Source: Deltaproteobacteria bacterium (lineage in GTDB: Bacteria; Myxococcota_A; UBA796; GCA-2862545). Taken from it: a DNA stretch of 55,955 nt. A program made the translations under genes and the position numbers. Location of the stretch: positions 1 through 55,955 of the forward strand of contig SBGP01000021.1 in assembly GCA_006226595.1 (NCBI GenBank). Reading direction: 5' to 3'. Shown one piece after another: positions 11,265-31,145 of the stretch. The notes beneath the pieces were generated by a model. It was not told the DNA's origin. It saw nothing but the letters and a program-made list of their open reading frames with translations, and searched no databases. Positions within the stretch are counted from its first letter, which is position 1. Each line of letters opens with the position of its first letter.

Positions 11265-11867
11265 ATGGCCGATCTGTTCCACGACAAGGCCGACGAGTAC
11301 GACACGCGTCCCGTGCCCCAGCAGATCTCCGAGGGCGTGTTCACCGCGATGCGCGACGCCGTGGACATCCGCGGCACCGTCATGGACTTCGGCGCCGGCA
11401 CCGGGCTGGTCGCGAGCAAGGTCGCACCGATGGCGGACGCCATCCTCGCGGTGGACGTGTCGCCGGCGATGCTCGCCAAGCTCGCCGAGAAGCCCGAGCT
11501 CGCCGGCAAGGTCGAGGTGTTCTGCCAGGACATCCTCGAGGCCCCCCTCGACCGGGACGCCGACCTCATCGTCAGCGCCATGGCCGCACACCACGTCGAG
11601 GACACGGCGGGTCTGATGCGCGCGCTGTTCGCGCACCTGCGGCCCGGAGGCCAGCTCGCCCTCGCCGACCTCGACGCCGAGGACGGAACCTTCCACCCGC
11701 CAGACATCGAGGGGGTGTTCCACGCGGGCTTCGAGCGCGAGGCCCTCGCGTCTCTCGCCCGAGAGGCCGGGTTCGCGGACCCCACCTTCGTCACCGCGTG
11801 CGAGGTCGACCGCGACGGTCGTCGCTACCCGATCTTCCTGCTCACCGCGACGCGACCCGCAGCGTGA
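11265..11867 (+). CDS. SAM-dependent methyltransferase (class I)
   Basis: A 200-residue Rossmann methyltransferase. Motif I is VMDFGAGTGLVASKV, the ribose-binding acidic strand is ILAVDVSPAML, motif IV is DLIVSAMAAHHVED and the post-motif is LRPGGQLALADLD. It resembles small-molecule methyltransferases, but the substrate is not readable. ATG 11265 has AGGAGG 4 nt upstream. A GTG at 11208 overlapping the modC stop is an alternative but has a non-family N-terminus. It is likely co-transcribed with the molybdate genes and overlaps the sulfatase start by 4 nt. Confidence 0.85.
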   Translation: MADLFHDKADEYDTRPVPQQISEGVFTAMRDAVDIRGTVMDFGAGTGLVASKVAPMADAILAVDVSPAMLAKLAEKPELAGKVEVFCQDILEAPLDRDADLIVSAMAAHHVEDTAGLMRALFAHLRPGGQLALADLDAEDGTFHPPDIEGVFHAGFEREALASLAREAGFADPTFVTACEVDRDGRRYPIFLLTATRPAA

Positions 11868-13261
11868 CCCCGCGTCTCGCCGTCGCCCTGCTCTGCGTCG
11901 GAGCGTGCACACCTCCACGCGGGGAGGGTGAGAACGTGCTCGTCGTGATCAGCGACGACATCGGCGCCGACAAGACCGGCGTGTACTCGGTCCACGCCGA
12001 GAGCCTGACGCCGACCCTCGACGCGCTCGCCGCCGAGGGCATGCGGTTCACGAACGCCTACAGCTCCCCGAGTTGCTCGCCCTCGCGCGCGACCCTGCTC
12101 ACCGGCCGCCTGCCCTCCCGCACCGGCATCGGGCGGTGGATGCAGCCCGCCAGCGAGGAGTGGGAGCTGCAGGACGACGAGCTCACCATCCCCGAGATGC
12201 TGCGCGAGCACGCCGAGGCTCGCTACAGCTCGGCAGTGGTCGGCAAGTGGCACGTGGCGAGCTTCAACCAGCGCCGCCCGACCCGGCACGCCCTGCGCCA
12301 GGGCTTCGACCACCACCGCGGATCCCTCGCGAACCCGACCACCGCCCTGCACCCGGACGACCAGCGCCGCGGCTACTTCCACTGGGAGAAGAACGTGGAC
12401 GGGCGGCTGGAGTGGTCCGACACGTACATGACCACGGACACGGTGGACGAGGCCCTCGCGCTGATCGAGGAACTGCCGGAGCCGTGGTTCGTGTGGGTGG
12501 CGCTCAACGCCGCGCACGAGCCCCTCCACGTGCCGCCCGATCACCTCAACCCCGGCGGGGTGACCGAGTCGGACAACGCGTTCGACAAGTTCGATGCCGA
12601 CGTGATCGCGTTCGACATGGAGCTCGGCCGGATGCTCGACAGCATCGACCCCGAGGTGCGCGAGGCGCTCACGCTGGTGTACGTCGGCGACAACGGCAGC
12701 TGGAACAACATCATCCGCGAGCCCTACAACGCGAACCGCGGCAAGGGCAGCACCTTCGAGCTCGGTGTGAACGTGCCGATGATCGTCACCGGGCCGCACG
12801 TGGCCGAGCCGGGCTCGGTCTCCGATGCCCTGGTCAACTTCGCCGACCTGTTCCCCACCGTGGCCGAGCTCGCCGGAGTCGACGCCGACGCGCTCACGTA
12901 CACGCACGGCGCCCGCGCGGGCGAAGCCCTCGATCTCGACGGAGCCAGCCTGCTGCCACTGCTCGCCGACCCTTCGGATCCGGGCCCCCGCGAGGTGAAC
13001 TACGCCGAGGCCTTCTGGCCGAACGGCCCAGGCCCCTACGAGTGGCGACGGCGCACGGTGCGCACGCGGACGCACAAGCTGCGCCGGGTCACCGACGGCG
13101 ACGGCGAGCGACTGCTGTTCTACCGGCTGAACACGACCCTGCTCGACGAGGGCGACGCGCTCGACACGACCGCGCTGAGCGCCGACGAACAGGCGCAGTA
13201 CGACCTGCTGCTCGCCGAGCTGACCCGGCTCGAGTCCGAGCTCGTGGTGAGCTGGGACTAG
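11864..13261 (+). CDS. Arylsulfatase-type sulfatase lipoprotein (Cys-type, formylglycine motif)
   Basis: A 465-residue sulfatase. The lipoprotein signal ends VGAC with Cys15. The metal site begins with SDD (30-32), and the maturation motif CSPSR (71-75) supplies the Cys that a formylglycine-generating enzyme would oxidise. LTG follows as usual. GKWH near 128, LNAAHEP and VYVGDNG complete the sulfatase pattern. It should hydrolyse a sulfate ester on the cell surface. GTG 11864 overlaps the methyltransferase stop. Its TAG stop interlocks with that of the convergent gene (CTAG at 13258-13261). No maturation-enzyme gene is visible nearby. Confidence 0.9.
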   Translation: MTPRLAVALLCVGACTPPRGEGENVLVVISDDIGADKTGVYSVHAESLTPTLDALAAEGMRFTNAYSSPSCSPSRATLLTGRLPSRTGIGRWMQPASEEWELQDDELTIPEMLREHAEARYSSAVVGKWHVASFNQRRPTRHALRQGFDHHRGSLANPTTALHPDDQRRGYFHWEKNVDGRLEWSDTYMTTDTVDEALALIEELPEPWFVWVALNAAHEPLHVPPDHLNPGGVTESDNAFDKFDADVIAFDMELGRMLDSIDPEVREALTLVYVGDNGSWNNIIREPYNANRGKGSTFELGVNVPMIVTGPHVAEPGSVSDALVNFADLFPTVAELAGVDADALTYTHGARAGEALDLDGASLLPLLADPSDPGPREVNYAEAFWPNGPGPYEWRRRTVRTRTHKLRRVTDGDGERLLFYRLNTTLLDEGDALDTTALSADEQAQYDLLLAELTRLESELVVSWD

Positions 13262-19447: not shown

Positions 19448-21064
19448 TCAGCGCGTCGCGAGGCCGCTGAGCTCCGGGCAGTCCACGTAGTCCGCCGCGC
19501 AGTCGCCGGCGTCGACCCGCTGCTCGGCGCAGGCCCAGTACGCGTTGGTCGCGGCCCGGCACTCGTACATGGCGTGCAGGAAGCGCTCGCGGGTGGTCGG
19601 CGCCTCGCCGAACATGCAGTCGTAGAAGCCCGAGTACTCACTCTCGCAGCCGGTCTGGGCACACTCGCTGAACAGCGAGGCGACCCCACAGCTGAAGCAG
19701 CTGTCGCTGGCCGAGCTCATGCACGAGGTCCGGCAGAACAGGTCGCCCGCGTCGCAGGTGGCCATGCACTGCTCGAAGCCGTCGCAGACCTCGCCGCTGC
19801 CGTCGCCGTAGAACGGGGTCGCGACGCTCACGAAGTTCAGGCACATCTCGTCGAAGGTGCCCTCGCCCCAGGTGATGTCGACGGGGGTCTCGCCGCCGGG
19901 CTGGTTCTGGCTGCTGTTGTCGTAGGTGCAGCGAATGCGGAACTCATCGGCCCAGCCGACCTCGATAGGCTCGGAGAAGGCGTAGCCGCGCTGCCACTGG
20001 AAGTTGTACTGCGGGATGTTCGCGAGGCAGATCTCCTCGCCGTCCTCGCGGATGAGCGTGGTCTCCTGAGACACGCCGCGCACGTGCATATGCGGGCTGC
20101 TCGCGAGGATGCGCCCATCGAGGGGCATACGCTGGCGCTGGATCTGCACCGACTCGCTGTCGTAGGCGGCGATGTCGAGGTCGAGCTTCACGATCGGCCA
20201 GGCGGTGACGAGCTCGTCGGGCAGCACGCCGGCCGGGTAGGTCCACAGGTCGACCGCGGTGCTGTCCACGTCGTCGGCGTCCACGCCGGTCGCGCCGAGG
20301 GTGTTGTAGTGCATCTGGAGCACGAGCTGCGAGCCTGCGGGAATGCGCAGGGCCACGCCGTCGGGAAGCGGTCGGAAGCCCTCGCCGCCCGGCGCCCACC
20401 CGGTGATCATCATCGCCTCGGACTGCTCACCGCTCTCGGCACCCGGCCCGCCGAAGCACTCGTAGCCCTCCTCGGGGTCCTCGGCCTCGAGGCGGTCCAC
20501 CAGATCCCGCTGGCTCGGCGGCATCGCATAGAGGATGGCGTGGTGGGCCACCGCGAGGTTTCCGGGGCGCACGCGGGTCGCGGACACGAACAGGTCCTCG
20601 GTGGTCGGCGCCCCCATCTGCACGCAGCGGTAGTCGTCGGATAGCCCGCGGTCCGGCAGGTAGCCGTCCATCGCAGCGATGACGTCCGGGTCGCGGTCGG
20701 GCGTCGGGTACGGCGTCACCTCGGGGGCGACGTAGTCGCTCTCGCGGCCCTCGGGGTAGCCGCGCTCGGCCCACGCCGTGAACAGCGCAATCTCGTCGTC
20801 CGAGAGGTGCTCCAAGCCGACGATGTCGTTGCAGCCCGGGTCATAGCCCCACGGGGGCATGATCTTCTCTTCGACCGCGGCGACGATGAGCGGCGCATAG
20901 GACGCCACACTCTCGTACGAGGAGAAGTCGTAGGGCGCGACCGTGGCGTCTCCCGAGTGGCAGGTGACGCAGTTGGCCTCCATCAGCGGGCGCACGTCGC
21001 GATGGTAGGTCGCGTTCGTGCTGGTGCCACAACCGACCAGCGCGAGAAGGAACAGATGACGCAT
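19448..21064 (-). CDS. Copper type II monooxygenase-like lipoprotein with c-type heme motif
   Basis: A 538-residue lipoprotein (lipobox LVGC, Cys12). Residues 32-36 are CVTCH in a DVRPLMEANCVTCHSGDA context, typical of the short heme-c domains in front of secreted oxidoreductases. Two domains of the copper type II ascorbate-dependent monooxygenase kind follow. N-terminal half: VAHHAILY, a Cu-ligand-type His pair, and VLQMHYN. C-terminal half: SSPHMHVRG, an HxH Cu motif. The last 120 residues are Cys-rich (over a dozen Cys). ATG 21064 begins the signal peptide; an upstream in-frame start (21100) does not. It probably hydroxylates a small molecule outside the cell using copper; the electron donor could be the heme domain. 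Confidence 0.83.
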   Translation of the reverse strand: MRHLFLLALVGCGTSTNATYHRDVRPLMEANCVTCHSGDATVAPYDFSSYESVASYAPLIVAAVEEKIMPPWGYDPGCNDIVGLEHLSDDEIALFTAWAERGYPEGRESDYVAPEVTPYPTPDRDPDVIAAMDGYLPDRGLSDDYRCVQMGAPTTEDLFVSATRVRPGNLAVAHHAILYAMPPSQRDLVDRLEAEDPEEGYECFGGPGAESGEQSEAMMITGWAPGGEGFRPLPDGVALRIPAGSQLVLQMHYNTLGATGVDADDVDSTAVDLWTYPAGVLPDELVTAWPIVKLDLDIAAYDSESVQIQRQRMPLDGRILASSPHMHVRGVSQETTLIREDGEEICLANIPQYNFQWQRGYAFSEPIEVGWADEFRIRCTYDNSSQNQPGGETPVDITWGEGTFDEMCLNFVSVATPFYGDGSGEVCDGFEQCMATCDAGDLFCRTSCMSSASDSCFSCGVASLFSECAQTGCESEYSGFYDCMFGEAPTTRERFLHAMYECRAATNAYWACAEQRVDAGDCAADYVDCPELSGLATR

Positions 21065-21122
21065 GGAACCGACTCCCCGGTGAGCCAGTATGAGGCACAC
21101 ACGGGGTCGGCGTCATCTCCGC

Positions 21123-22730
21123 CTACAGATCGGTGCTGACCGCGGTGAGCGGCGAGCTCGTCGCCGGCTCGGTGTAGTAGACGTCCGCGTGCTCCTGGTA
21201 GTAGCACTCGACGCTTGCCTCCGAGAACGTGCCGACGTTGGTGTGCAGCGTGGTCACCTCGTGCAGCGACGCCACGTGGCTCAGGCCCTCGATGAAGCCC
21301 CCACAGTTGGCGGGCACCGCGTCGACCACGAGGTCTCCCGCGTTCGGCGCGTCCCAGCTCAGCACCACCGGCATCGTGCAGTTCGCGTAGCCGTACAGCC
21401 CGGCGTTCCACGCGCGCTCGACCCCCGCGACCTTCCAGCCGTTCCCGTCGTTCTCGGCGTAGGACCGCATCGCCACGCCGTCCACGCGATAGCCCGACAG
21501 CGCGCTGTCCGCGTCCGGCGCGATGGGCGTGCCATCCGGCAGCGTCCAATGGTCGTAGCGCAGGCCCGAGCCGCTGTCGGCGTGGGACTGGACGACCGGG
21601 AAGTCGCTGAACGGCGTCGAGTTCGACGCAATGACGTAGAAGGTGCTCTCGGGGTCCAGGGTCTGGCTGCTGCCGTTGGCGCAGTAGTAGTTCTGGGTCG
21701 AGACCACCGCGAACAGCGACTCCACGGGCTCCCACGAGCTGAAGTCCGCGATCAGGACGTAGGCCGGCACCTCGGAGCGCGAGGTTCCCACGTAGCCGTA
21801 CGGACCGTTCGGGCTGCTGCAGTCGGCGGCCCACAGGCTGCCCGAGTTCGACGTGTCCTCGTAGGGAATCGCGCGGGTCTGGAAGTCCCCGAGCGGCATC
21901 GCCGCCTTCGCCGGTCGCTCAGACGCGATGTGCCACAGGCCACCGAGGGCCTTGCTGCCATCCTCGCCGGTGAGCACGTGGCGGCCGACCTCGCTGTCCA
22001 CGGCGACGTGGCTCGAGGTGAACTCGACGAAGGTGTCCGGCGTCACCGGCACGCCGACGATGCCGTCCCAGGTCGGCGACGACGTCGACACCCCGCAGTA
22101 GCCGCGGGAGTTCAGCGTGTACACGTCCTGGGTGGTCGACGCCGCCGAGTAGATCGCGTACGCATCCCCGCGCCGGTCGTAGAAGTAGCTGCCCGCGTCG
22201 CACTCGCCGAAGAACAGCATCGCCGGCTCGGTGCACGCGCTGTCCGCGAACAGCGCGCTCTCGGTCACCTCGAGAGCCTCGGGCAGGCAGCGGATCTTGC
22301 CGTCGGTGGCCAGCTTGGGCGCGCATCGCACGCCGAGCTCGGTGTCGACGAACCAGGCGACGACCTCGTTTCCGTGGGCATCGACGACCGCGTGGGCGGT
22401 CAGCCGCGTGCCGGACTGGGGCTCGGTCGCGTACGCACCGAGGGGCGCCGGGTCGGTGTCGGTATCGGCATCCGTGTCCGCATCGGCATCGGTGTCCGCG
22501 TCGGCGTCCGTGTCCGCGTCCGCGTCCGTGTCCGCGTCGGCATCGGTGTCCGCGTCGGCATCGGTGTCCGCGTCGGCATCGGTGTCCGCGTCGGCATCCG
22601 TGTCCGCGTCGGTGTCGGTGTCGGTGTCCGTGTCCGTCTCGGCGGCGGTGTCCTCGGCGGTATCGAGGGGCACGTCATCGCCGCCGGTACAGGCGATCAG
22701 CGACAGGACGAGGAGCGAGGATCGGAACAT
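21123..22730 (-). CDS. Lipoprotein with long Asp/Thr/Ala repeat linker
   Basis: A 535-residue surface protein. The signal ends LSLIAC with Cys14. Residues about 29-95 are an almost pure DTDADADTDAD stalk encoded by an 18-bp tandem repeat. The remaining 440 residues form a Cys-containing, Tyr/Ser-rich extracellular domain that I do not recognise. The stalk probably lifts that domain off the membrane. ATG 22730 has GGAGG 7 nt upstream. It follows the terpene-cyclase gene on the same strand with 71 nt between and may be co-transcribed, but a -10-like GATAGC in the gap allows its own promoter. Confidence 0.7.
   Translation of the reverse strand: MFRSSLLVLSLIACTGGDDVPLDTAEDTAAETDTDTDTDTDADTDADADTDADADTDADADTDADADTDADADTDADADTDADADTDADTDTDPAPLGAYATEPQSGTRLTAHAVVDAHGNEVVAWFVDTELGVRCAPKLATDGKIRCLPEALEVTESALFADSACTEPAMLFFGECDAGSYFYDRRGDAYAIYSAASTTQDVYTLNSRGYCGVSTSSPTWDGIVGVPVTPDTFVEFTSSHVAVDSEVGRHVLTGEDGSKALGGLWHIASERPAKAAMPLGDFQTRAIPYEDTSNSGSLWAADCSSPNGPYGYVGTSRSEVPAYVLIADFSSWEPVESLFAVVSTQNYYCANGSSQTLDPESTFYVIASNSTPFSDFPVVQSHADSGSGLRYDHWTLPDGTPIAPDADSALSGYRVDGVAMRSYAENDGNGWKVAGVERAWNAGLYGYANCTMPVVLSWDAPNAGDLVVDAVPANCGGFIEGLSHVASLHEVTTLHTNVGTFSEASVECYYQEHADVYYTEPATSSPLTAVSTDL
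22453..22640 (-). repeat. In-frame tandem repeat, 18-bp unit (coding DADADT)
   Basis: Near-identical 18-bp units fill this stretch. Four perfect copies of GTGTCCGCGTCGGCATCG (plus-strand reading) begin at 22528, 22546, 22564 and 22582, and degenerate 6- and 12-bp variants flank them. Because the unit is a multiple of three, copy-number change would alter stalk length without breaking the frame. Confidence 0.85.
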
Positions 22731-22801: not shown

Positions 22802-25800
22802 TCAGTCCATCAGACCCCAGCGATGCACGAGGGCATCGGGCAGGCGGAAGGTCGTCTGCTTGCCCTCGCGCTCGACCAGGATCAGCGCCTCCATCACCGC
22901 GGTCGCGATGTACGCGGGCACCGAGGCGTAGCGCGGGTGGCGGTGGTGGAGCTCGAGCACGTTCGCGATGCGCGACTGCACGTGCAGCACCTTCCGGATG
23001 ATCGCCCGTCGCTTGGCGTACTTGGGCAGACCGAGCACGTCCGCACAGCGGTCCCCCGCAACCTCACGGATGAGCATCTCGGCCATCGGCACGCCCGGGT
23101 TGGTCGGCGCCGGCATCATGTCGGCGATCGACCAGCACAGCTGGTGGGTGAGCCGACGCCCCTGCTCTGACGGGGCCCACTGGTCGTCCCGAATCGCGTC
23201 CATCAGCGCACGCGCGTCGTCGATATCGGGGGCGAGCAGGTTCTCGTGCACGCCCATCACGTGCCCCACACACGCCCACGTGTGCATCCACGCCTTCTCT
23301 TCGTGCGGGGAGACGTGGATGTGCAGCCGCTTCATCGCGTCGAGCACGACCAGCGAGAAGGTCATCACCGTTCCGGCGAGGTCCTCCTGGTTGATTGGCA
23401 CCCCCCAGGACGGCGTGGCCCAGGCCCGCCGCATCAGCGAGTGCTGGCGAACCGTCGCGTGGATGAGACGCACCTTGCGCGCCACCGCGAGTCCCCTGCC
23501 CTTCGGCCCGAACGAGTCCGGGGCGAGCACGTCGAACAGGAACTGCGCGGTCTCGCCGATGCGTCGCTTCACGTGCTGCGTGAGCCCCTGCGTCTCGAGC
23601 AGGACCCGCGCACCGTTGGCGGCGGCGTAGGCCTGCGGCAGGCTGCTCGCGAACAGGCACAGCGCGAAGGACCAGCCCACGCGCTCGTAGAAGGCCTGGG
23701 CATCGCGAATGAGGTCGTGGTCGGCCCACTCGGGCAGGTTGGCGTTGTCCTCGAGCCACTTGGCGAGCTCGGGGTCGACATCCGGCGGGAAGGGGTCGTC
23801 GTTGGTGACCATGTGCCGGAACACGTCGCTCACCTGCTGCAGCTGGTGGTTCTCCATCACCTTGCGGACGACCGCGTCCGCGCTCGGGTCACCGACCGTG
23901 CGCCACGCCCGCAGACCCTCCTGGCTCCACGTTCCGTCGGGGTTGCGCACCGACGCGGTCGGCCAGGTGTCCCCCTCGTTGCCCCCGAGCACGCCCTTGA
24001 TGCTGCGCGTCGTCGCGCCGCCGGCCGCGACCTCGAGACCGAGCTGTGCATGGCGGTAGTGGCCGAGCGCCTCGAGGGGCATGTTCGTGTCAGAGGCGGG
24101 CAACCAGTAGAAGTAGCCGGGCAGCAGGAACACGTGCTGCCAGCCCTTGTTGGCCCAGGTGCCGCTCTTGCGCTGAGTCTTCACCAGGTATGCCGCCGCC
24201 CGATGCGCCGCGTCGGTCTGGCCGTGACCCGCACGGCACAGCGCACTCAGCGCCAGTCCCGTGAGACCCGGCATGCTCTCGCCCTGGGCCTTGGACTTCT
24301 CGGGGTGCACGTAGCTGTCGATGCCCTCGCCCCAGCCGCCGTCCTTGTTCTGGTGACCGACGAGGAACTGCACGCCGCGGTCGAGCATCGCCTTGTTCTC
24401 GCAGCCGACCGACGTCAGGCCGATCAGGCACCACGCGGTCCCCGCGACGTAGTTGGTCATCCACCGCGACCACCAGCTGCCGTCGGGCTCCTGCATGCGC
24501 ACGAGGAACTCGATGGCCGACTTCACCCGCGGGTCGTCGGGCGTCGCATCCATGCGTCCCCAGGCCTCGAGGATGCGGGCGGTCACGTCCTCGGTGGACG
24601 GGTCGCCGAAGGTCGCGACCTTCTGGCGCAGGTCCTTCATCGCCTTCTTCGGGTCGGTCCAGTCGAGGGCGGCGTGCTCGACCCACATCGGGCCGCGCAG
24701 CTTGCCGGGCTGTCCCTGCTCGTACGCCCCCCAGCCGCCGTCCTTGTTCTGCATACCGATGAGGTACTCGCGGGCCTGCTCGCAGGAGTCCGCGGCCGAG
24801 TTGACGATGTCCTCCAGCGCCGGGTTCTTGGCGCTGCGCTGCAGGAACATCGACAAGGCACCCATCGCCACGCCGGTGTCGTCGTTGTCCGGGCAGCTGT
24901 TGTTGGCGTACTCGTAGCCAAAGCCGCCGAGCTTGGGACCGCGGTCTGGCGTCGTCGGGGGGAGCTCCGTCTGCTGCTGCGCGCCGTACAGGTGCTTCAC
25001 GCCGCCGAGGATGGCCGGGTGGGTGGGGTCGACGTCGCAGACGAGCAGTGCGCGGAGGTTGAGCGCGGTGTCCCAGACGTCCGAGCCGAAGATGTTGTAG
25101 TAGAGCGTCGTCGAGTTCTCGACCCGCTGCTCGGCGAGCCAGCTGACCGCGAGGTCGTAGTGCTCGTTCCCCGGGCCCTCGCCGAGGGTACGCAGGGCGC
25201 ACAGCCACATCACCGTCATCAGCGCGATGCCGTTGATGGCGCCGTTTCGGCTCTGGTAGTTCGCGCAGAAGTCGATGATCGCCTTCTTCTCACGCGCGCC
25301 GATGCTGCCGCCGCGAAGCCCGGTGAAGATCGTGCCCAGCTGGAGCATGCCCGTGAGCACCCCGGCGTTGATCACCTTGCTCGCCTCGTGGAGTGCACCC
25401 GGCACCTCGATCCACGCGAGCGGGATCTTCGGCAGCTTGTCGGCGTCGAGGATGCCGGCGTACCCGAGGTAGGGCGCTGTCGCGTACGGATCGGAGAGCG
25501 CCTGCTCGGCCACCGCGTCGAGGCCGCCGTTCGCGAGCACGTAGTCCCAGGCCTGGGCGAGCCGCGGGTCGTCTTCGGCGAGTCCGCTTCGCGACAGCGC
25601 GGCCCAGCACGCGGCCGTGCCGACGAGCGAGCCCTCCCCGACGTGGAGGTTGCTCGGGAAGGAGCCGTCCGGGAGCTGCTGGCGCAGGATCCAGGTGCAC
25701 ACCTTCTTGTCGTCGCTCGGCCGGGTGTGCCCGAGCTGCTTGAGGATCAGGTGCACGAGGGCCGTGGCAGCCGGCGCGAGCTGCGGGACCTGTTGCCAGC

Positions 25801-25885
25801 CGCCGTTCGGCAGCGGGTTGGCGAGGATGGCAGCGGTGCTGCGGTCGATGGCCGCGCCGAGGCGGTCCATGCTCACGGGGGTCAT
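22802..25885 (-). CDS. Fusion of squalene-hopene-cyclase-like domain with Lcp/MpaB (DUF2236) oxygenase-like domain
   Basis: A 1027-residue soluble or peripheral protein with two enzyme modules. Residues 1 to about 625 follow the class II triterpene cyclase pattern: VWDTALNLRAL (270-280), CPDNDDTG with the DxDD acid motif (DNDD 333-336), QW motifs QNKDGGW (379-385), QEPDGSWWSRW (465-475) and QNKDGGWGE (512-520), and DPSTEDVTARILEAWG (428-443). Residues about 655-1020 match the rubber-oxygenase/mycophenolate-oxygenase family: GDPSADAVVRKV, WADHDLIRDAQAFY, KVRLIHATVRQHS, SWGVPINQEDLAGTVMTFS, MHTWACVGHVMGV. The ATG overlaps the stop of the upstream kinase (ATGA, 25882-25885), so both are made together. 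Likely role: cyclise an isoprenoid and oxidise or cleave it. Product unknown. Confidence 0.88.
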   Translation of the reverse strand: MTPVSMDRLGAAIDRSTAAILANPLPNGGWQQVPQLAPAATALVHLILKQLGHTRPSDDKKVCTWILRQQLPDGSFPSNLHVGEGSLVGTAACWAALSRSGLAEDDPRLAQAWDYVLANGGLDAVAEQALSDPYATAPYLGYAGILDADKLPKIPLAWIEVPGALHEASKVINAGVLTGMLQLGTIFTGLRGGSIGAREKKAIIDFCANYQSRNGAINGIALMTVMWLCALRTLGEGPGNEHYDLAVSWLAEQRVENSTTLYYNIFGSDVWDTALNLRALLVCDVDPTHPAILGGVKHLYGAQQQTELPPTTPDRGPKLGGFGYEYANNSCPDNDDTGVAMGALSMFLQRSAKNPALEDIVNSAADSCEQAREYLIGMQNKDGGWGAYEQGQPGKLRGPMWVEHAALDWTDPKKAMKDLRQKVATFGDPSTEDVTARILEAWGRMDATPDDPRVKSAIEFLVRMQEPDGSWWSRWMTNYVAGTAWCLIGLTSVGCENKAMLDRGVQFLVGHQNKDGGWGEGIDSYVHPEKSKAQGESMPGLTGLALSALCRAGHGQTDAAHRAAAYLVKTQRKSGTWANKGWQHVFLLPGYFYWLPASDTNMPLEALGHYRHAQLGLEVAAGGATTRSIKGVLGGNEGDTWPTASVRNPDGTWSQEGLRAWRTVGDPSADAVVRKVMENHQLQQVSDVFRHMVTNDDPFPPDVDPELAKWLEDNANLPEWADHDLIRDAQAFYERVGWSFALCLFASSLPQAYAAANGARVLLETQGLTQHVKRRIGETAQFLFDVLAPDSFGPKGRGLAVARKVRLIHATVRQHSLMRRAWATPSWGVPINQEDLAGTVMTFSLVVLDAMKRLHIHVSPHEEKAWMHTWACVGHVMGVHENLLAPDIDDARALMDAIRDDQWAPSEQGRRLTHQLCWSIADMMPAPTNPGVPMAEMLIREVAGDRCADVLGLPKYAKRRAIIRKVLHVQSRIANVLELHHRHPRYASVPAYIATAVMEALILVEREGKQTTFRLPDALVHRWGLMD

Positions 25886-28800
25886 GCGGTCTCCGTGCGC
25901 CTCGCGTGTCGGGCGGCCCCGAGCTCGACGAAGAGCGCGTGGGCCTCGGCGAGGGCGCCCGCATCCTGCACATGGCGACCGAGACCTTCAAGCGCGCACG
26001 CGAGCTCGAAGGGCATGGCCCGCGCCCGCCCGCTGTCCACGGCCGCCCGCAGCTTCGCCTCGGCGTCGCTCGCTCCCCGTCGCACCGCCAGCTGGGCGGC
26101 GGCGTGTCGGGCCGAGGTCTCTCCCATGAGCACGGTCCGCGCCTGGCGCTCGGCCTCGCGCACGGCCTCCTGCGCGCGGGCGACGAGCAGGTCACGCGGG
26201 ACGTCGAGCGCCTCGGCATGGTCGATGAGCTCGACCCGGGTCAGCGGCAACACCCGCTGGAGCATCGAGGTCGACGGGTCGCCGCCGGTCCCGGTGCCGA
26301 GGATGTCGCGCACCTCCTCAGCTGCGCGGTGCGCGCGCCCCGGGTCGCCACTCGCGAGTGCCCACGCCGCCTCCAGCCCCCACACGCTGGCGCGCTGCAC
26401 CGGCCCGTCCTCGGCGAGGTCCGCGTGGGCGGCCGCGATGTGCTCCCCCGCGAGCGCGAGATCCCCGTCCTGCAGGCACACCTCGGCGGCGGTGAGCAGG
26501 TCCGCTCCCGCGAAGTGGCGCTGGCCCTCGCGACGGCGCAGACGAAACAGGTCCTGCACCCGCTCCCGCGCCCGCGGCATGTCGCCCATGGAGCGCGCGA
26601 GCAGGTGGTCGTTGAACAGCGCGTACTCGACCCGCTGAGCATCTTGCGACCGCCGGGCGTGGTCGAGCGCCCGATCCGTATGGACGCGCGCCTCGTCATA
26701 GCGGGCCTGGTAGATCGCGAGGAAGCCCTTCTGCGTCAGCGTGGCCGCCAACGCGCCGTCGCGGGCCGCGCCCTCCTCGCGGTCAGCCCATGCCTCGCCA
26801 CGCTCGAAGGCCGCATCGGCCCAGGCCTGGCGCCCGGCCAGCCCGTAGATCAGCGCGACCATGCACTTCACGCGCGCCCCGAAGCCCCACACCTGGCCGG
26901 TCTCGCACAGGTTCACCCCCCAGAACAGGGTGGTGAGGAACGACAGCGGTGCCGGGTCCCGGAGGAAGCCGTACCAGAGGAAGTAGAGGACGTACGCCGC
27001 GGCCCGGTCCCGGCGCAGCGCCTCTCCGTCGCGCACCGGCGCCCCCCACCAGCGATAGCGCGCCTGCGTCGCGAGCTCGGACGCGAGCCGAAGCCCCCAC
27101 CCGAGCTGGCTGCTGGGCAGGCGCATGCCGAGCAGGGGCAACACCTCGCGCGCGATCTCGAGCGACACCGCGGCCTGACCGTTGGCGTGCACCGCAAGCC
27201 CGCGACGCACGAGGATCTCGGCGCGCTCGAGCGGCGGCAGTCCCTCGAACCAGCGTCCGGCGTCGACGGCGCGCAGCTCGTCGAACAGGCTTCGGGCGAG
27301 GCGCATCTGACCGCTCTGCAGCGCCTCTTCCGCGCCGGTGAGCAGGTGGGGGACGGCATCGAGACTGCGACCGCCGCGGAGCAGGTGTCGGCCCAGCTCG
27401 GCGGCTGACGCGTGATCGGCCCGAACCTCGGCAGCCCCGAGGTGCAGCGCGCGAACCTCGGCCTCGGCGAGGTTGTCGTACGCGGCCTCGAGCAGGCGGT
27501 CGTGGGTGAAGGCGAAGCGCACGTCGTCGAGCTGCTCGGCGATCTGCGACGCGCGCAGCTCGGCGAGGCCGGGCAGCGGGTCGAGACCGAGGATGGCCTC
27601 GAGGTCCGCGGCACGGAACACCTTGCCGAGCACGCTCGCGGCCCCGAGCACCCGGCGGGCCTCGTCCGAGAGGCGCTGCAAGCGGTTGTGGAGCACCGCG
27701 ATGCCACGCGGGCTCTGGCGGAGGGACGCGTGCGCCGCCCAGGTCCACCGCGCGCCGTCCCAGCGAAGATCACCGCTGGCTTCGGCCTCGTCGAGGAGGA
27801 TGGTCGCGAGCAGCGGGCTGCCGGCGGAGCCCTGGACGAGCGCCTCGGCCACGTCCTCGGGCATGGACGAGCCGGCGGTCATGGCCACAGCGAGGTCGGT
27901 GATGTCCCGCTGCCCCAGTGTGGGCACCACCCAGTCTGCGAGCAGGCCCTGTCGGCGCCAGGACTCGATGCTGTCCGGCAGCTCCTCGGAGCGCGCGGAG
28001 AGCAGCACGGCGAGCCCGGGCATCGGCTCGCGGAGCAGCACCTCGACCACGGCCAGGGTGAGCTCGTCCGCCCACTGCACGTCATCGATGACCAGCAGCT
28101 GCGCCTGCTGCGACCCGACGTCCGCGAGTGCGCGCAAGGCCGAGGCACGCAGCTGATCCGCGTTCGGCGGCGCGACCTCGCCCTCGCCGAGCCCGTCGAC
28201 CACGGCGCGGAGCACGGGCAGTGCGTCCTCCCAGGCCTCGGCGCGCCCCTCGAGCACGGCGGTGCGAAGCAGCGGCGCGAAGCCCTGGAGCGCGCGCGCC
28301 GACTCGCCGCGATCCGTGCGGTTGCCGCCACAGTCGGCGCTGTGAACGCGCAGCCCGCGGGGTCGAGCACGGCGGAGGATCTCGCGCAGCAGGCGCGTCT
28401 TTCCACTGCCGCTCGGCCCGAGGACCAGGTGCACCGGACCCTTCGCGCTGCGGTCGAGGAAGGCGTCCGCCTCGGCAAGCAACGCGTCCCGGCCGGTGAG
28501 CGGCGGCCGGAACAGGCGCGGGGAGCCATCGGGCCAGTCCTCGGGAAGCGCGCCACCACCCAGCGCCTCGAGCTGCTCGCCGACCGGTCCCGCATACGGC
28601 GGACGGGCATCGGCACGCGGCGCGAGCAGGGACTCGGTGAGCGCGTCGAGCTCGGGCCGATCGAGGCTCTCGAGCATGCGCCCGACGGCGTACAGATCGC
28701 TGCGACCGTCGAGGGGAAGTCCGCGGCGCTGCTCGGGCGAGGCATAGCCGCGGGTGCCGCCGACCAGCGTGTTCACGGGCTGCGCCTCGCGCCCTTCCGC

Positions 28801-29298
28801 GTCGTGGAGGTGCACGGCGATCCCAAAGTCCGCGAGCACCGGGCGCCCCTGCTCGTCGAGGAGCACGTTCCCGGGCTTCAGATCGCGATGCACCACGCCG
28901 TTCGAGTGCAGCCAGCCGAGAATCGCGCAGATCTGTCGCACGATCGGCAGCGTGAGCTCGCTCTCCTCGCCCTCCTCCCCGCCGGCGGGGTCGAAGGTGA
29001 GCGCCGACTCGCCGAGTGCCCGCGGATACAGCGGCATCGCGTACCAGGGACGCCCCTCGTGTTCGCCGCGAGCGAGCACCGGCACCACACCGGGATGCCG
29101 CAGCGACGCGAGCAGCGCGGCCTCCTGGCGCAGCACCTGACCGTGGGTCGCACCCGGCTTGGCACGCTTGATCGCCACCGGCTCCGCATGCCCGTGCACG
29201 AATCCGCGCCAGACCTCAGCCATGCCGCCTTCGGCAAGCAGTGCACGAAATTGGACCAACGACGCGTTCACACCGTCCCCGCCGGCCTCTTCTACCAT
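25882..29298 (-). CDS. Ser/Thr kinase - AAA ATPase - TPR regulator (PknK-like layout)
   Basis: A 1138-residue cytoplasmic signalling protein. The kinase domain covers about 15-240: loop AEGGMAEVW (22-30), Lys44, HRDLKPGNVLL (137-147), DFG (157-159), GTRGYASPEQ. It is linked to a P-loop ATPase: GPSGSGKT (294-301) and LLVIDDVQWAD (401-411), the STAND/AAA type seen in PknK- and MalT-like regulators. The last 550 residues are helical repeats with scattered aromatic pairs. No DNA-binding domain is visible. ATG 29298 lies 6 nt from a TATCAC hexamer; the frame is open further upstream, but only into the divergent FHA gene. Its stop overlaps the cyclase-oxygenase start, so it probably senses a metabolite and controls that enzyme or its expression. 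Confidence 0.87.
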   Translation of the reverse strand: MVEEAGGDGVNASLVQFRALLAEGGMAEVWRGFVHGHAEPVAIKRAKPGATHGQVLRQEAALLASLRHPGVVPVLARGEHEGRPWYAMPLYPRALGESALTFDPAGGEEGEESELTLPIVRQICAILGWLHSNGVVHRDLKPGNVLLDEQGRPVLADFGIAVHLHDAEGREAQPVNTLVGGTRGYASPEQRRGLPLDGRSDLYAVGRMLESLDRPELDALTESLLAPRADARPPYAGPVGEQLEALGGGALPEDWPDGSPRLFRPPLTGRDALLAEADAFLDRSAKGPVHLVLGPSGSGKTRLLREILRRARPRGLRVHSADCGGNRTDRGESARALQGFAPLLRTAVLEGRAEAWEDALPVLRAVVDGLGEGEVAPPNADQLRASALRALADVGSQQAQLLVIDDVQWADELTLAVVEVLLREPMPGLAVLLSARSEELPDSIESWRRQGLLADWVVPTLGQRDITDLAVAMTAGSSMPEDVAEALVQGSAGSPLLATILLDEAEASGDLRWDGARWTWAAHASLRQSPRGIAVLHNRLQRLSDEARRVLGAASVLGKVFRAADLEAILGLDPLPGLAELRASQIAEQLDDVRFAFTHDRLLEAAYDNLAEAEVRALHLGAAEVRADHASAAELGRHLLRGGRSLDAVPHLLTGAEEALQSGQMRLARSLFDELRAVDAGRWFEGLPPLERAEILVRRGLAVHANGQAAVSLEIAREVLPLLGMRLPSSQLGWGLRLASELATQARYRWWGAPVRDGEALRRDRAAAYVLYFLWYGFLRDPAPLSFLTTLFWGVNLCETGQVWGFGARVKCMVALIYGLAGRQAWADAAFERGEAWADREEGAARDGALAATLTQKGFLAIYQARYDEARVHTDRALDHARRSQDAQRVEYALFNDHLLARSMGDMPRARERVQDLFRLRRREGQRHFAGADLLTAAEVCLQDGDLALAGEHIAAAHADLAEDGPVQRASVWGLEAAWALASGDPGRAHRAAEEVRDILGTGTGGDPSTSMLQRVLPLTRVELIDHAEALDVPRDLLVARAQEAVREAERQARTVLMGETSARHAAAQLAVRRGASDAEAKLRAAVDSGRARAMPFELACALEGLGRHVQDAGALAEAHALFVELGAARHARRTETA

Positions 29299-29322
29299 GA
29301 TCACGTGATAGCCTGCGCCGCT
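29299..29322. promoter_or_regulatory. 24-bp divergent promoter gap with perfect palindrome ATCACGTGAT
   Basis: Only 24 bp separate the start codons of the kinase-ATPase (minus, 29298) and FHA (plus, 29323) genes. Minus-strand TATCAC (29310-29305) is 6 nt from its ATG; plus-strand TAGCCT (29309-29314) is 8 nt from its ATG. The two hexamers overlap. The 10-bp palindrome ATCACGTGAT (29300-29309) overlaps both, so one bound factor could silence both genes. Confidence 0.55.
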
Positions 29323-30231
29323 ATGGGAACCCTCCGCGAACTCGCCACCGGTCGAATCGTCCACCTCGGCAGTCGAGCCCAGATCGGGCGCGCCGCCGGC
29401 GTCTCGTTGCGCATTCGCGATCGAATGGTCAGCAGCGAGCACGCGGTGCTGTGGTGGAATGGCCAGCACTGGGCGCTGCGCGATCTCGCGTCCCGCAATG
29501 GAACCTTCGTCGACGGCACCCAGCTCGCCAGCGGCGACACCAGGGTGCTCGATTCCGGGGCACGCCTGGGCTTCGGCTCTCCGGAGGCCAGCCACGAGCT
29601 GCTCGACGCCGGTCCCCCGCGTGCGGTCGCCACCGACGAGGGCGGCGACCAGCGGATCGCCGAGGGCGGCATGCTGTGCTTGCCGTCGGAGGACGCGCCC
29701 GTGGTGGTGGTGTTCCGCGACAGCATGGGCACCTGGCAGGCCGAGGGCCCGGCAGGCGTTCGCGCGGTCGAGAGCGGCGACGAAGTCGAAGTCGAAGGAA
29801 CCTACTGGGAGCTCGCCCTGCCCCTCGACGAGGCTGAGACCTGGGCGCGCGAGGCCGGTGCCATCGAGATGCGCTTCCTGCCCCTCGACTTCTCCGTGAG
29901 CTCGGACGAGGAGCACGTGCAGGTCGTCGCCGGCCTTCCCACCGGCACCGTGGAGCTCGAGCCCCGCGCGCACCACTACCTGCTGCTCACCCTCGCACGG
30001 CGCCACGTCGACGACGCCGAGATGCCCGAGGCGGAGCGCGGGTGGCTTCACGTCGACGAGCTCGAGCGCATGCTGCGCATCGCCCGCGGCTCGCTGAACA
30101 TGCAGATCATGCGTGCCCGCCGCGAGATGGAAGGCCTCGGCATCGCCGACCCGATGAGCGTCATCGAGCGCCGCCCGCTCGTCGGCACGCTGCGCCTGGG
30201 CACTCCAAGGGTACGCGTCGGCCGGATGTGA
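29323..30231 (+). CDS. FHA-domain protein with C-terminal winged-helix-like region
   Basis: A 302-residue protein. Residues 1-95 are a forkhead-associated phosphothreonine-binding domain with the conserved pattern GRAAGVSLRIRDRMVSSEHA and LRDLASRNGTFVDG. The middle is acidic and beta-rich. The last 90 residues (HHYLLLTLARRHVDD, then WLHVDELERMLRI and NMQIMRARREMEGLG) resemble the winged-helix C-terminus that accompanies FHA domains in myxobacterial regulators. It is divergent from the Ser/Thr kinase-ATPase across a shared promoter, so it is a natural reader of that kinase's phosphothreonine, possibly the transcriptional output of the locus. Confidence 0.85.
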   Translation: MGTLRELATGRIVHLGSRAQIGRAAGVSLRIRDRMVSSEHAVLWWNGQHWALRDLASRNGTFVDGTQLASGDTRVLDSGARLGFGSPEASHELLDAGPPRAVATDEGGDQRIAEGGMLCLPSEDAPVVVVFRDSMGTWQAEGPAGVRAVESGDEVEVEGTYWELALPLDEAETWAREAGAIEMRFLPLDFSVSSDEEHVQVVAGLPTGTVELEPRAHHYLLLTLARRHVDDAEMPEAERGWLHVDELERMLRIARGSLNMQIMRARREMEGLGIADPMSVIERRPLVGTLRLGTPRVRVGRM

Positions 30232-30284: not shown

Positions 30285-31145
30285 ATGCGAACATTCCTGC
30301 TTCCGCTCCTCGCCGCCTGCAGCGGCCCCGCCGCCGAGGATTCGGCCACCGAGCCGGCCACCGGCTGCAACGGCCACGATGTGCTGTGCCAGCTGCCCTT
30401 CGACGAGGTGGCCGTCGCGATGACCCACAACGCGATGTCGTCGGCCGAAGACGACTGGCTCGCCCCGAACCAGACGTACGCGATGCCGCGACAGCTCGAG
30501 GACGGCGTGCGCGGGTTCATGATCGACACGCACTACGACGACGACGGCACCCCCGCGCTGTGCCACGGCTTCTGCAGCATCGGCAGCACGCCGCTGGTCG
30601 ATGGGCTGCGTCAGTTCACCGACTTCCTCGACGCCCACCCGCGCGAGGTGGTCGTGTTCATGATCGAGAACGGCATCTCCGCCGAGGACACGGCCGCCGC
30701 CTTCGAGGCCGCGGACCTGCTTCGCTACACCTACGCCCATGATCCCCAGCTGGCGTGGCCCACCCTCGGTGAGCTCGTCGAGGCGGACACGCGCCTGATC
30801 GTGTTCCACCAGGGCGGCGGCACCGATCCCGCCTGGTACATGGATGGCTACGCCGACTACGTGTGGGACACGGACTACAGCGCCGAGACCGCCGCGGACT
30901 TCGACTGCGGAAGGCTTCGCGGCAGCAGCGACCATGCGCTGTTCCTCATGAACCACTTCCTCACGGCCCCCCTCGCCTCACCCGACCTGGCCGAGCAGGT
31001 GAACCACAACCCCCTGCTGCTCGACCGCGCGCGGCAGTGCGAAGCCGAGGCCGGACAGGCGGTGAACTGGATTGCGGTGGACTTCTACGACATCGGCGAC
31101 GTGCTCGCGGTGGTCGACACCCTCAACGGGGTCGACGCTCTGTAA
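30285..31145 (+). CDS. PI-PLC-like phosphodiesterase lipoprotein
   Basis: A 286-residue lipoprotein (LLAAC, Cys12). It has the phospholipase-C X-domain layout: VAMTHNAMSS with first catalytic His48, RGFMIDTHYDD, then ALCHGFCSIG with second catalytic His94, and later VVFMIENG, LIVFHQGGG and FLMNHFL. Bacterial enzymes of this fold cleave phosphatidylinositol or similar head groups without needing metal. Both catalytic His are present, so activity is likely. The surface location suggests action on foreign or outer-leaflet lipid. The mRNA is predicted leaderless. Confidence 0.83.
   Translation: MRTFLLPLLAACSGPAAEDSATEPATGCNGHDVLCQLPFDEVAVAMTHNAMSSAEDDWLAPNQTYAMPRQLEDGVRGFMIDTHYDDDGTPALCHGFCSIGSTPLVDGLRQFTDFLDAHPREVVVFMIENGISAEDTAAAFEAADLLRYTYAHDPQLAWPTLGELVEADTRLIVFHQGGGTDPAWYMDGYADYVWDTDYSAETAADFDCGRLRGSSDHALFLMNHFLTAPLASPDLAEQVNHNPLLLDRARQCEAEAGQAVNWIAVDFYDIGDVLAVVDTLNGVDAL

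Follow-up and report, generated by a model that had tools for sequence, protein, structure and literature searches.

In Mycobacterium tuberculosis, the soluble Hanks kinase PknK phosphorylates VirS, the regulator of the mymA monooxygenase operon (PMC4601284), and the C-terminal region of PknK is of the STAND class (PMC9045387). The PknH-EmbR-embCAB system of the same organism has a Hanks kinase that acts on EmbR, a protein combining an FHA domain with an OmpR-type DNA-binding domain (PMC4601284). In both systems the action of the kinase on its regulator, exerted through FHA in the case of EmbR, adjusts the transcription of envelope or oxygenase genes. On the enzyme side, the bacterial clusters of Pyr4-like terpene cyclases, such as those for xiamycin and zigralone, carry the cyclase together with oxidising partner genes (PMC13307353); the words kinase, oxygenase and DUF2236 are absent from the text of the latter paper. 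The literature searched yielded no fusion of a cyclase with an Lcp-like oxygenase, an arrangement by which a single protein would both form rings and cleave the chain oxidatively. In the bacteria studied here Hanks kinases are very abundant, and the output is known for few of them; a subfamily whose conserved neighbour makes a measurable product would render the question of kinase output directly testable.

The window, a stretch of 55,955 nucleotides from a Deltaproteobacteria bacterium (contig SBGP01000021.1), contains a locus with likenesses to these systems. On its minus strand, a gene at 25882-29298 encodes a 1138-residue protein, here called KAT, composed of a Hanks-type Ser/Thr kinase, an AAA_16/STAND-type ATPase and a helical (TPR-like) C-terminus. 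It is followed by a gene at 22802-25885 for a 1027-residue enzyme in which an SHC-like class II terpene cyclase is fused to an MPAB/Lcp (DUF2236) heme-oxygenase-like half. The TGA of KAT and the ATG of the fusion gene share the four bases ATGA (25882-25885, read from the sequence), an overlap from which we infer that translation of the two genes would be coupled, and a GGAG (25891-25894, minus strand) lies five bases before the fusion-gene ATG. A 302-residue FHA protein is encoded divergently on the plus strand (29323-30231), its start 24 bp from the KAT ATG; a later GTG is a possible KAT start and would give a gap of 51 bp. The earlier note had described this arrangement, namely a 1138-residue kinase/P-loop protein overlapping a cyclase-oxygenase gene and an FHA gene 24 bp away on the other strand, and the open reading frames and Pfam domains bear out its coordinates and these features. 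The same strand as KAT and the fusion gene carries, further downstream, a lipoprotein-like gene and a copper monooxygenase gene. By analogy, we read the locus as a regulated isoprenoid-tailoring operon in which a PknK/EmbR-style circuit from kinase to FHA factor would govern a pathway to cyclised and oxidised isoprenoids, a reading to which we give about an even chance. The proposal in the earlier note, of a self-contained system in which the kinase controls a terpenoid-producing enzyme and an FHA regulator reads the signal, is partly supported, self-containment and control of the enzyme being inferences.

The kinase domain of KAT spans residues 20-209 (Pkinase, 4.8e-22) and the AAA_16 domain residues 267-426 (3.9e-19). 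The motifs of both are intact: VAIK at 41, HRDLKPGN at 137 and DFG at 157 supply, within PF00069, the catalytic Lys, HRD and DFG by which Hanks Ser/Thr kinases are recognised, and the P-loop ATPase has Walker A GPSGSGKT at 294 and Walker B LLVIDD at 401. The kinase and P-loop assignments of the earlier note are thus upheld by Pfam, and its TPR assignment is weakly supported (TPR_12 at E 0.012 in the C-terminal 498 residues, below the cut-off, and TPR_MalT at 8e-4 in a homologue). Of the STAND/PknK-like layout, KAT has the N-terminal kinase and the following AAA_16; its helical repeat match is sub-threshold. The likeness to PknK-VirS-mymA, as judged by domain description, would lie in the Hanks kinase with a C-terminal STAND region and in the monooxygenase operon; however, VirS is an AraC-family protein without an FHA domain, and the enzymes are unrelated to those of the window. 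PknH differs from KAT in that it has an extracellular sensor, in place of which KAT has AAA_16. We know of no overlap between kinase and enzyme genes in the PknK system. In the reading favoured here, the STAND ATPase and helical part of KAT would sense a ligand or partner and gate the kinase. Two other identities were tried for KAT and rejected. As a TOMM kinase-cyclase fusion it scores 107.3 bits on TIGR03903 against a cut-off of 705.75, and its PADLOC matches to anti-phage defence kinases (PD-T4-6, Mads) are confined to the kinase domain, approximately residues 16-210.

The FHA protein matches PF00498 (5.8e-15) and, in an alignment of 43 homologues, keeps the phosphothreonine-site invariants G22, R23, S37, H40, N59 and G60, which make up the G-R, S-x-x-H and N-G signature of phosphothreonine readers. 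In an AlphaFold2 model (pLDDT 93), the N-terminal part finds its closest structural match in the EmbR FHA domain (Z 16.9, 1.5 Å over 93 residues), and FHA domains took up the listed Foldseek matches of the whole model. The C-terminal part of the model shows the order of strands, three helices and wing seen in OmpR-type winged helices. A Pfam search with this part gave no match; hhalign against Trans_reg_C gave a weak match (P 4e-4, probability 36%), compared with P 0.24-0.36 for other parts of the protein used as controls. Because of this probable OmpR-like winged helix, a role as transcription factor is likelier for the protein than one of passive reading, which refines the proposal in the earlier note that it 'reads the signal'. 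The domain order differs from that of EmbR, a SARP with the order wHTH-BTA-FHA, whereas the window protein has FHA, a middle beta region and the probable C-terminal winged helix. The family is large and favours kinase neighbours: a kinase lies within 700 bp at 13 of 40 loci of its homologues (P ~1e-8). Since these kinases are of various architectures, the FHA factor partners kinases in general and is unspecific to the terpenoid pathway.

Genomes of the order (63), a sample of the phylum (377) and a second order (183) were searched for similar neighbourhoods; in the phylum samples, scoring was limited to a few top candidates of each genome, and absences there are therefore not firm. The closest match to the window is locus L103 of G061, from another family of the same order, which has an FHA gene on the minus strand and then KAT, MPAB, SHC-DUF2071 and Cu-monooxygenase genes in succession. 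The FHA protein of L103 is 47% identical to that of the window. Given one inner stop in its KAT gene and a frame change in its SHC gene, the L103 copy may be decaying or misassembled. In a first tree, the window FHA stood apart from that of L103 and grouped with paralogues of its own genus that are unlinked to SHC, but constraining the two together gave a better likelihood, and the AU test does not reject their grouping. KAT is also directly upstream, on the same strand, of SHC at L143 (G342), L147 (G281) and L150 (G363), as it is of MPAB followed by SHC at L103; beside the pairs at L143, L147 and L150 FHA is absent. Hence, of the trio for which the earlier note had suggested a conservation check, the kinase and cyclase (with or without oxygenase) recur in other genomes, whereas conservation of the full trio with FHA is thin, being complete in one other genome, G061.

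The occurrence of KAT-SHC pairs without FHA makes direct control of the enzyme by KAT the main rival to a transcriptional circuit. KAT would then act on the enzyme (or envelope) itself, phosphorylation setting activity, and the FHA gene would serve another kinase or be a chance neighbour. The ATGA overlap, which joins the KAT and enzyme genes only and would place both proteins together, is in keeping with such control, as is the pairing of the FHA family with kinases of other architectures. We nevertheless regard it as unlikely, as the FHA homologue recurs in the L103 cluster and a divergent regulator with a probable DNA-binding domain argues for action on a promoter; the usual target of divergently transcribed regulators of this kind is transcription. 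In the kinase-to-FHA-factor circuit that we prefer, KAT would autophosphorylate and/or phosphorylate threonines to which the FHA domain would bind, and the winged helix of the FHA protein would act as a transcriptional switch at the short promoter region between the divergent genes. FHA-driven transcription would in turn set the level of KAT and of the enzyme.

The cyclase half of the fusion (23966-25885, minus strand; residues 1-640) resembles squalene-hopene cyclases over approximately residues 13-611, with PF13243 at 2.7e-64 (217.7 bits) and PF13249 at 7.7e-24 (84.8 bits), and carries QW motifs. When the half is aligned to the SHC structures of A. acidocaldarius, DNDD at 333-336 falls on the DXDD acid motif of the SHC superfamily; D335 aligns with the catalytic Asp that reads C in 2sqc/3sqc, and both D333 and D335 are invariant across five fusions from different genomes. 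The oxygenase half (22802-23965, minus strand; residues 641-1027) matches MPAB_Lcp_cat (PF09995, 5.2e-25, 89.3 bits) at residues 748-968 and rubber oxygenase 5o1m at E 5e-26 (also aligned to 5o1l). It keeps the Arg, Thr, Arg and His of the MPAB/Lcp (DUF2236) heme site as R775, T779, R806 and H809, the heme-ligand His included, which we take to correspond to R164, T168, R195 and H198 of LcpK30. Unlike LcpK30, the fusion carries a cyclase and has Glu (E778) in place of the distal Lys of Lcp, a replacement that is invariant in the fusions. A structure model of the fusion was poor (pLDDT 67.6, five-row alignment) and was set aside. From membership in these two families, the chemistry is likely cyclisation together with oxidative attack on the C=C bonds of an isoprenoid chain. 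The SHC half would use its DXDD acid to cyclise a squalene-like polyprenoid, and oxidative cleavage or oxygenation of a C=C bond in the same chain would fall to the Lcp-like heme half, so that the fusion would yield a cyclised, oxidised terpenoid.

The retained SHC domains and DXDD motif would also fit ordinary hopanoid synthesis, in which the oxygenase half would be an accessory to an SHC half that makes a membrane lipid of the hopene type. Yet the SHC half does not reach the hopene cyclase equivalog TIGR01507, its 221.7 bits being about half of the cut-off of 431.1, which makes 'hopene synthase' an unsuitable name for it. This shortfall, the fusion to an Lcp/MPAB oxygenase, the patchy distribution of the enzyme and the lack of hopanoid side-chain genes among the scanned neighbours render hopanoid synthesis distinctly improbable.

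The operon appears to reach downstream of the genes singled out in the earlier note. The lipoprotein-like gene (21123-22730, minus strand) follows the fusion gene after a 71 bp gap on the same strand and likely belongs to the same operon; its product has a lipoprotein-like N-terminus, a weak DUF7481 match and an Asp-Thr/Ala repeat. The probable last gene (19448-21100, minus strand) encodes an exported-type copper type II monooxygenase with a CxxCH motif (PF03712, 1.5e-9). A homologue of this protein occupies the corresponding position in L103 (29% identity over 463 aa, E 1e-42), which is our reason for extending the operon of the window to the monooxygenase gene. The enzyme may modify the terpenoid product further outside the cytoplasm.

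SHC-MPAB fusions were found in five genomes (the window genome, G342, G328, G484 and G485), and unfused SHC and MPAB genes are adjacent in G220, G455 and G061 (loci L144, L234 and, in G061, L103). Standalone MPAB or SHC genes were numerous in the same genome searches. The fusion enzyme is missing from G001, the sister genome within the genus, and from most of the order. A scan of 84,980 genomes added no fusion, as its SHC relatives match the cyclase half and none of the 80 loci retained from it matched the oxygenase half. Neighbour scans at the fusions of family f42 (L140, L232 and L233) showed no KAT. In the SHC tree, the three f42 fusions group together, that of L143 falls with other KAT-linked SHCs, and that of the window stands alone. 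As the fusions form no single clade, repeated origin of the fusion, or its loss, is possible.

The neighbourhood of KAT and cyclase is conserved beyond chance. With 24-46 AAA_16 matches per genome, the chance of such a protein lying directly upstream on the same strand is below 1%, and, with the window left aside, KAT occupies this position at 4 of 20 SHC loci (P ~1e-6 to 2e-5, a rough null since the genomes are related; the four positive loci come from four families). Because several distant relatives have the same type of kinase next to genes for terpene cyclases and oxygenases, we take the pairing to be real, and it probably marks a regulated, uncharacterised terpenoid pathway.

MPAB has a second kind of cyclase partner in these genomes. 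At nine loci it adjoins a transmembrane terpene cyclase of the Pyr4-like type (PF25129; lowest E 4e-26 among the four loci scanned, the remaining ones found by tblastn), a family unrelated to SHC, and KAT is beside the MPAB-Pyr4 pair at five of the nine (L151, L153, L163, L167 and L242). This count leaves out the KATs close to MPAB at L239 and L168, which are outside the Pyr4 set. At L153 a homologue of the window FHA protein is also near KAT. These pairs are analogous to the xiamycin and zigralone clusters, from which they differ in that the partner is MPAB, often with KAT beside it. A tree was built of 42 KATs, taken from these loci and from the AAA_16 matches of five genomes; its long branches leave the exact branching order unsure. 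All five SHC-linked KATs belong to a single clade of 11 rows (SH-aLRT 100), which they share with six others, and four MPAB-Pyr4 KATs form a separate clade. A chance or loose neighbourhood, with KAT functionally untied to the enzyme, is improbable: these genomes are rich in kinases (at least 138 matches in that of the window, besides the AAA_16 matches), many SHC or MPAB loci are without KAT and the sister genome lacks the fusion, yet the frequency of KAT at both sets of loci (P 1e-7 to 2e-5), the single clade of SHC-linked KATs and the Cu-monooxygenase partner common to the window and L103 speak against it.

Other lipid genes adjoin members of this group. The KAT most like that of the window elsewhere in the order, at L251, overlaps a FAD-oxidoreductase/ADC-type gene that is followed by a CMAS gene, and ADC-type genes adjoin SHC at L141, L235 and L237. 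The thread common to these loci is KAT with lipid or isoprenoid enzymes. It is possible, if doubtful, that the KAT class serves specifically to control isoprenoid cyclase-oxygenase pathways in the phylum, SHC-like and Pyr4-like cyclases each being joined to MPAB and KATs, with an FHA-winged-helix relay in some. If so, KATs would be hooks toward a hidden set of bacterial terpenoids.

Several further features were observed. In the window, the FHA gene adjoins a plus-strand gene for a PI-PLC-X domain protein with a lipoprotein-like start (30285-31145), and the Asp-Thr/Ala repeat of the lipoprotein-like gene is long (22500-22650, minus strand). The same genome has a second, unfused MPAB protein (G000:C53:99088-100176; L112 11095-12177), 41% identical to the oxygenase half of the fusion, close to a contig end and with no KAT nearby. 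At L103 (11548-13203), the C-terminal half of SHC is fused to a DUF2071 (acetoacetate-decarboxylase-like) domain. In the SHC tree, the SHC genes of L142 and L236 branch from within the fused ones; both stop near the expected continuation of the fusion, face a convergent kinase gene and may be former fusions minus the oxygenase half. Just upstream of the KAT-less f42 fusions is a divergent gene of ~137 aa (L140 7263-7679, L232 2485-2898, L233 8931-9344), without a Pfam match in the two tested, whose product is a possible alternative regulator of these fusions. Two genes downstream of the fusion at L140 is an FHA protein of another type (11785-12624).
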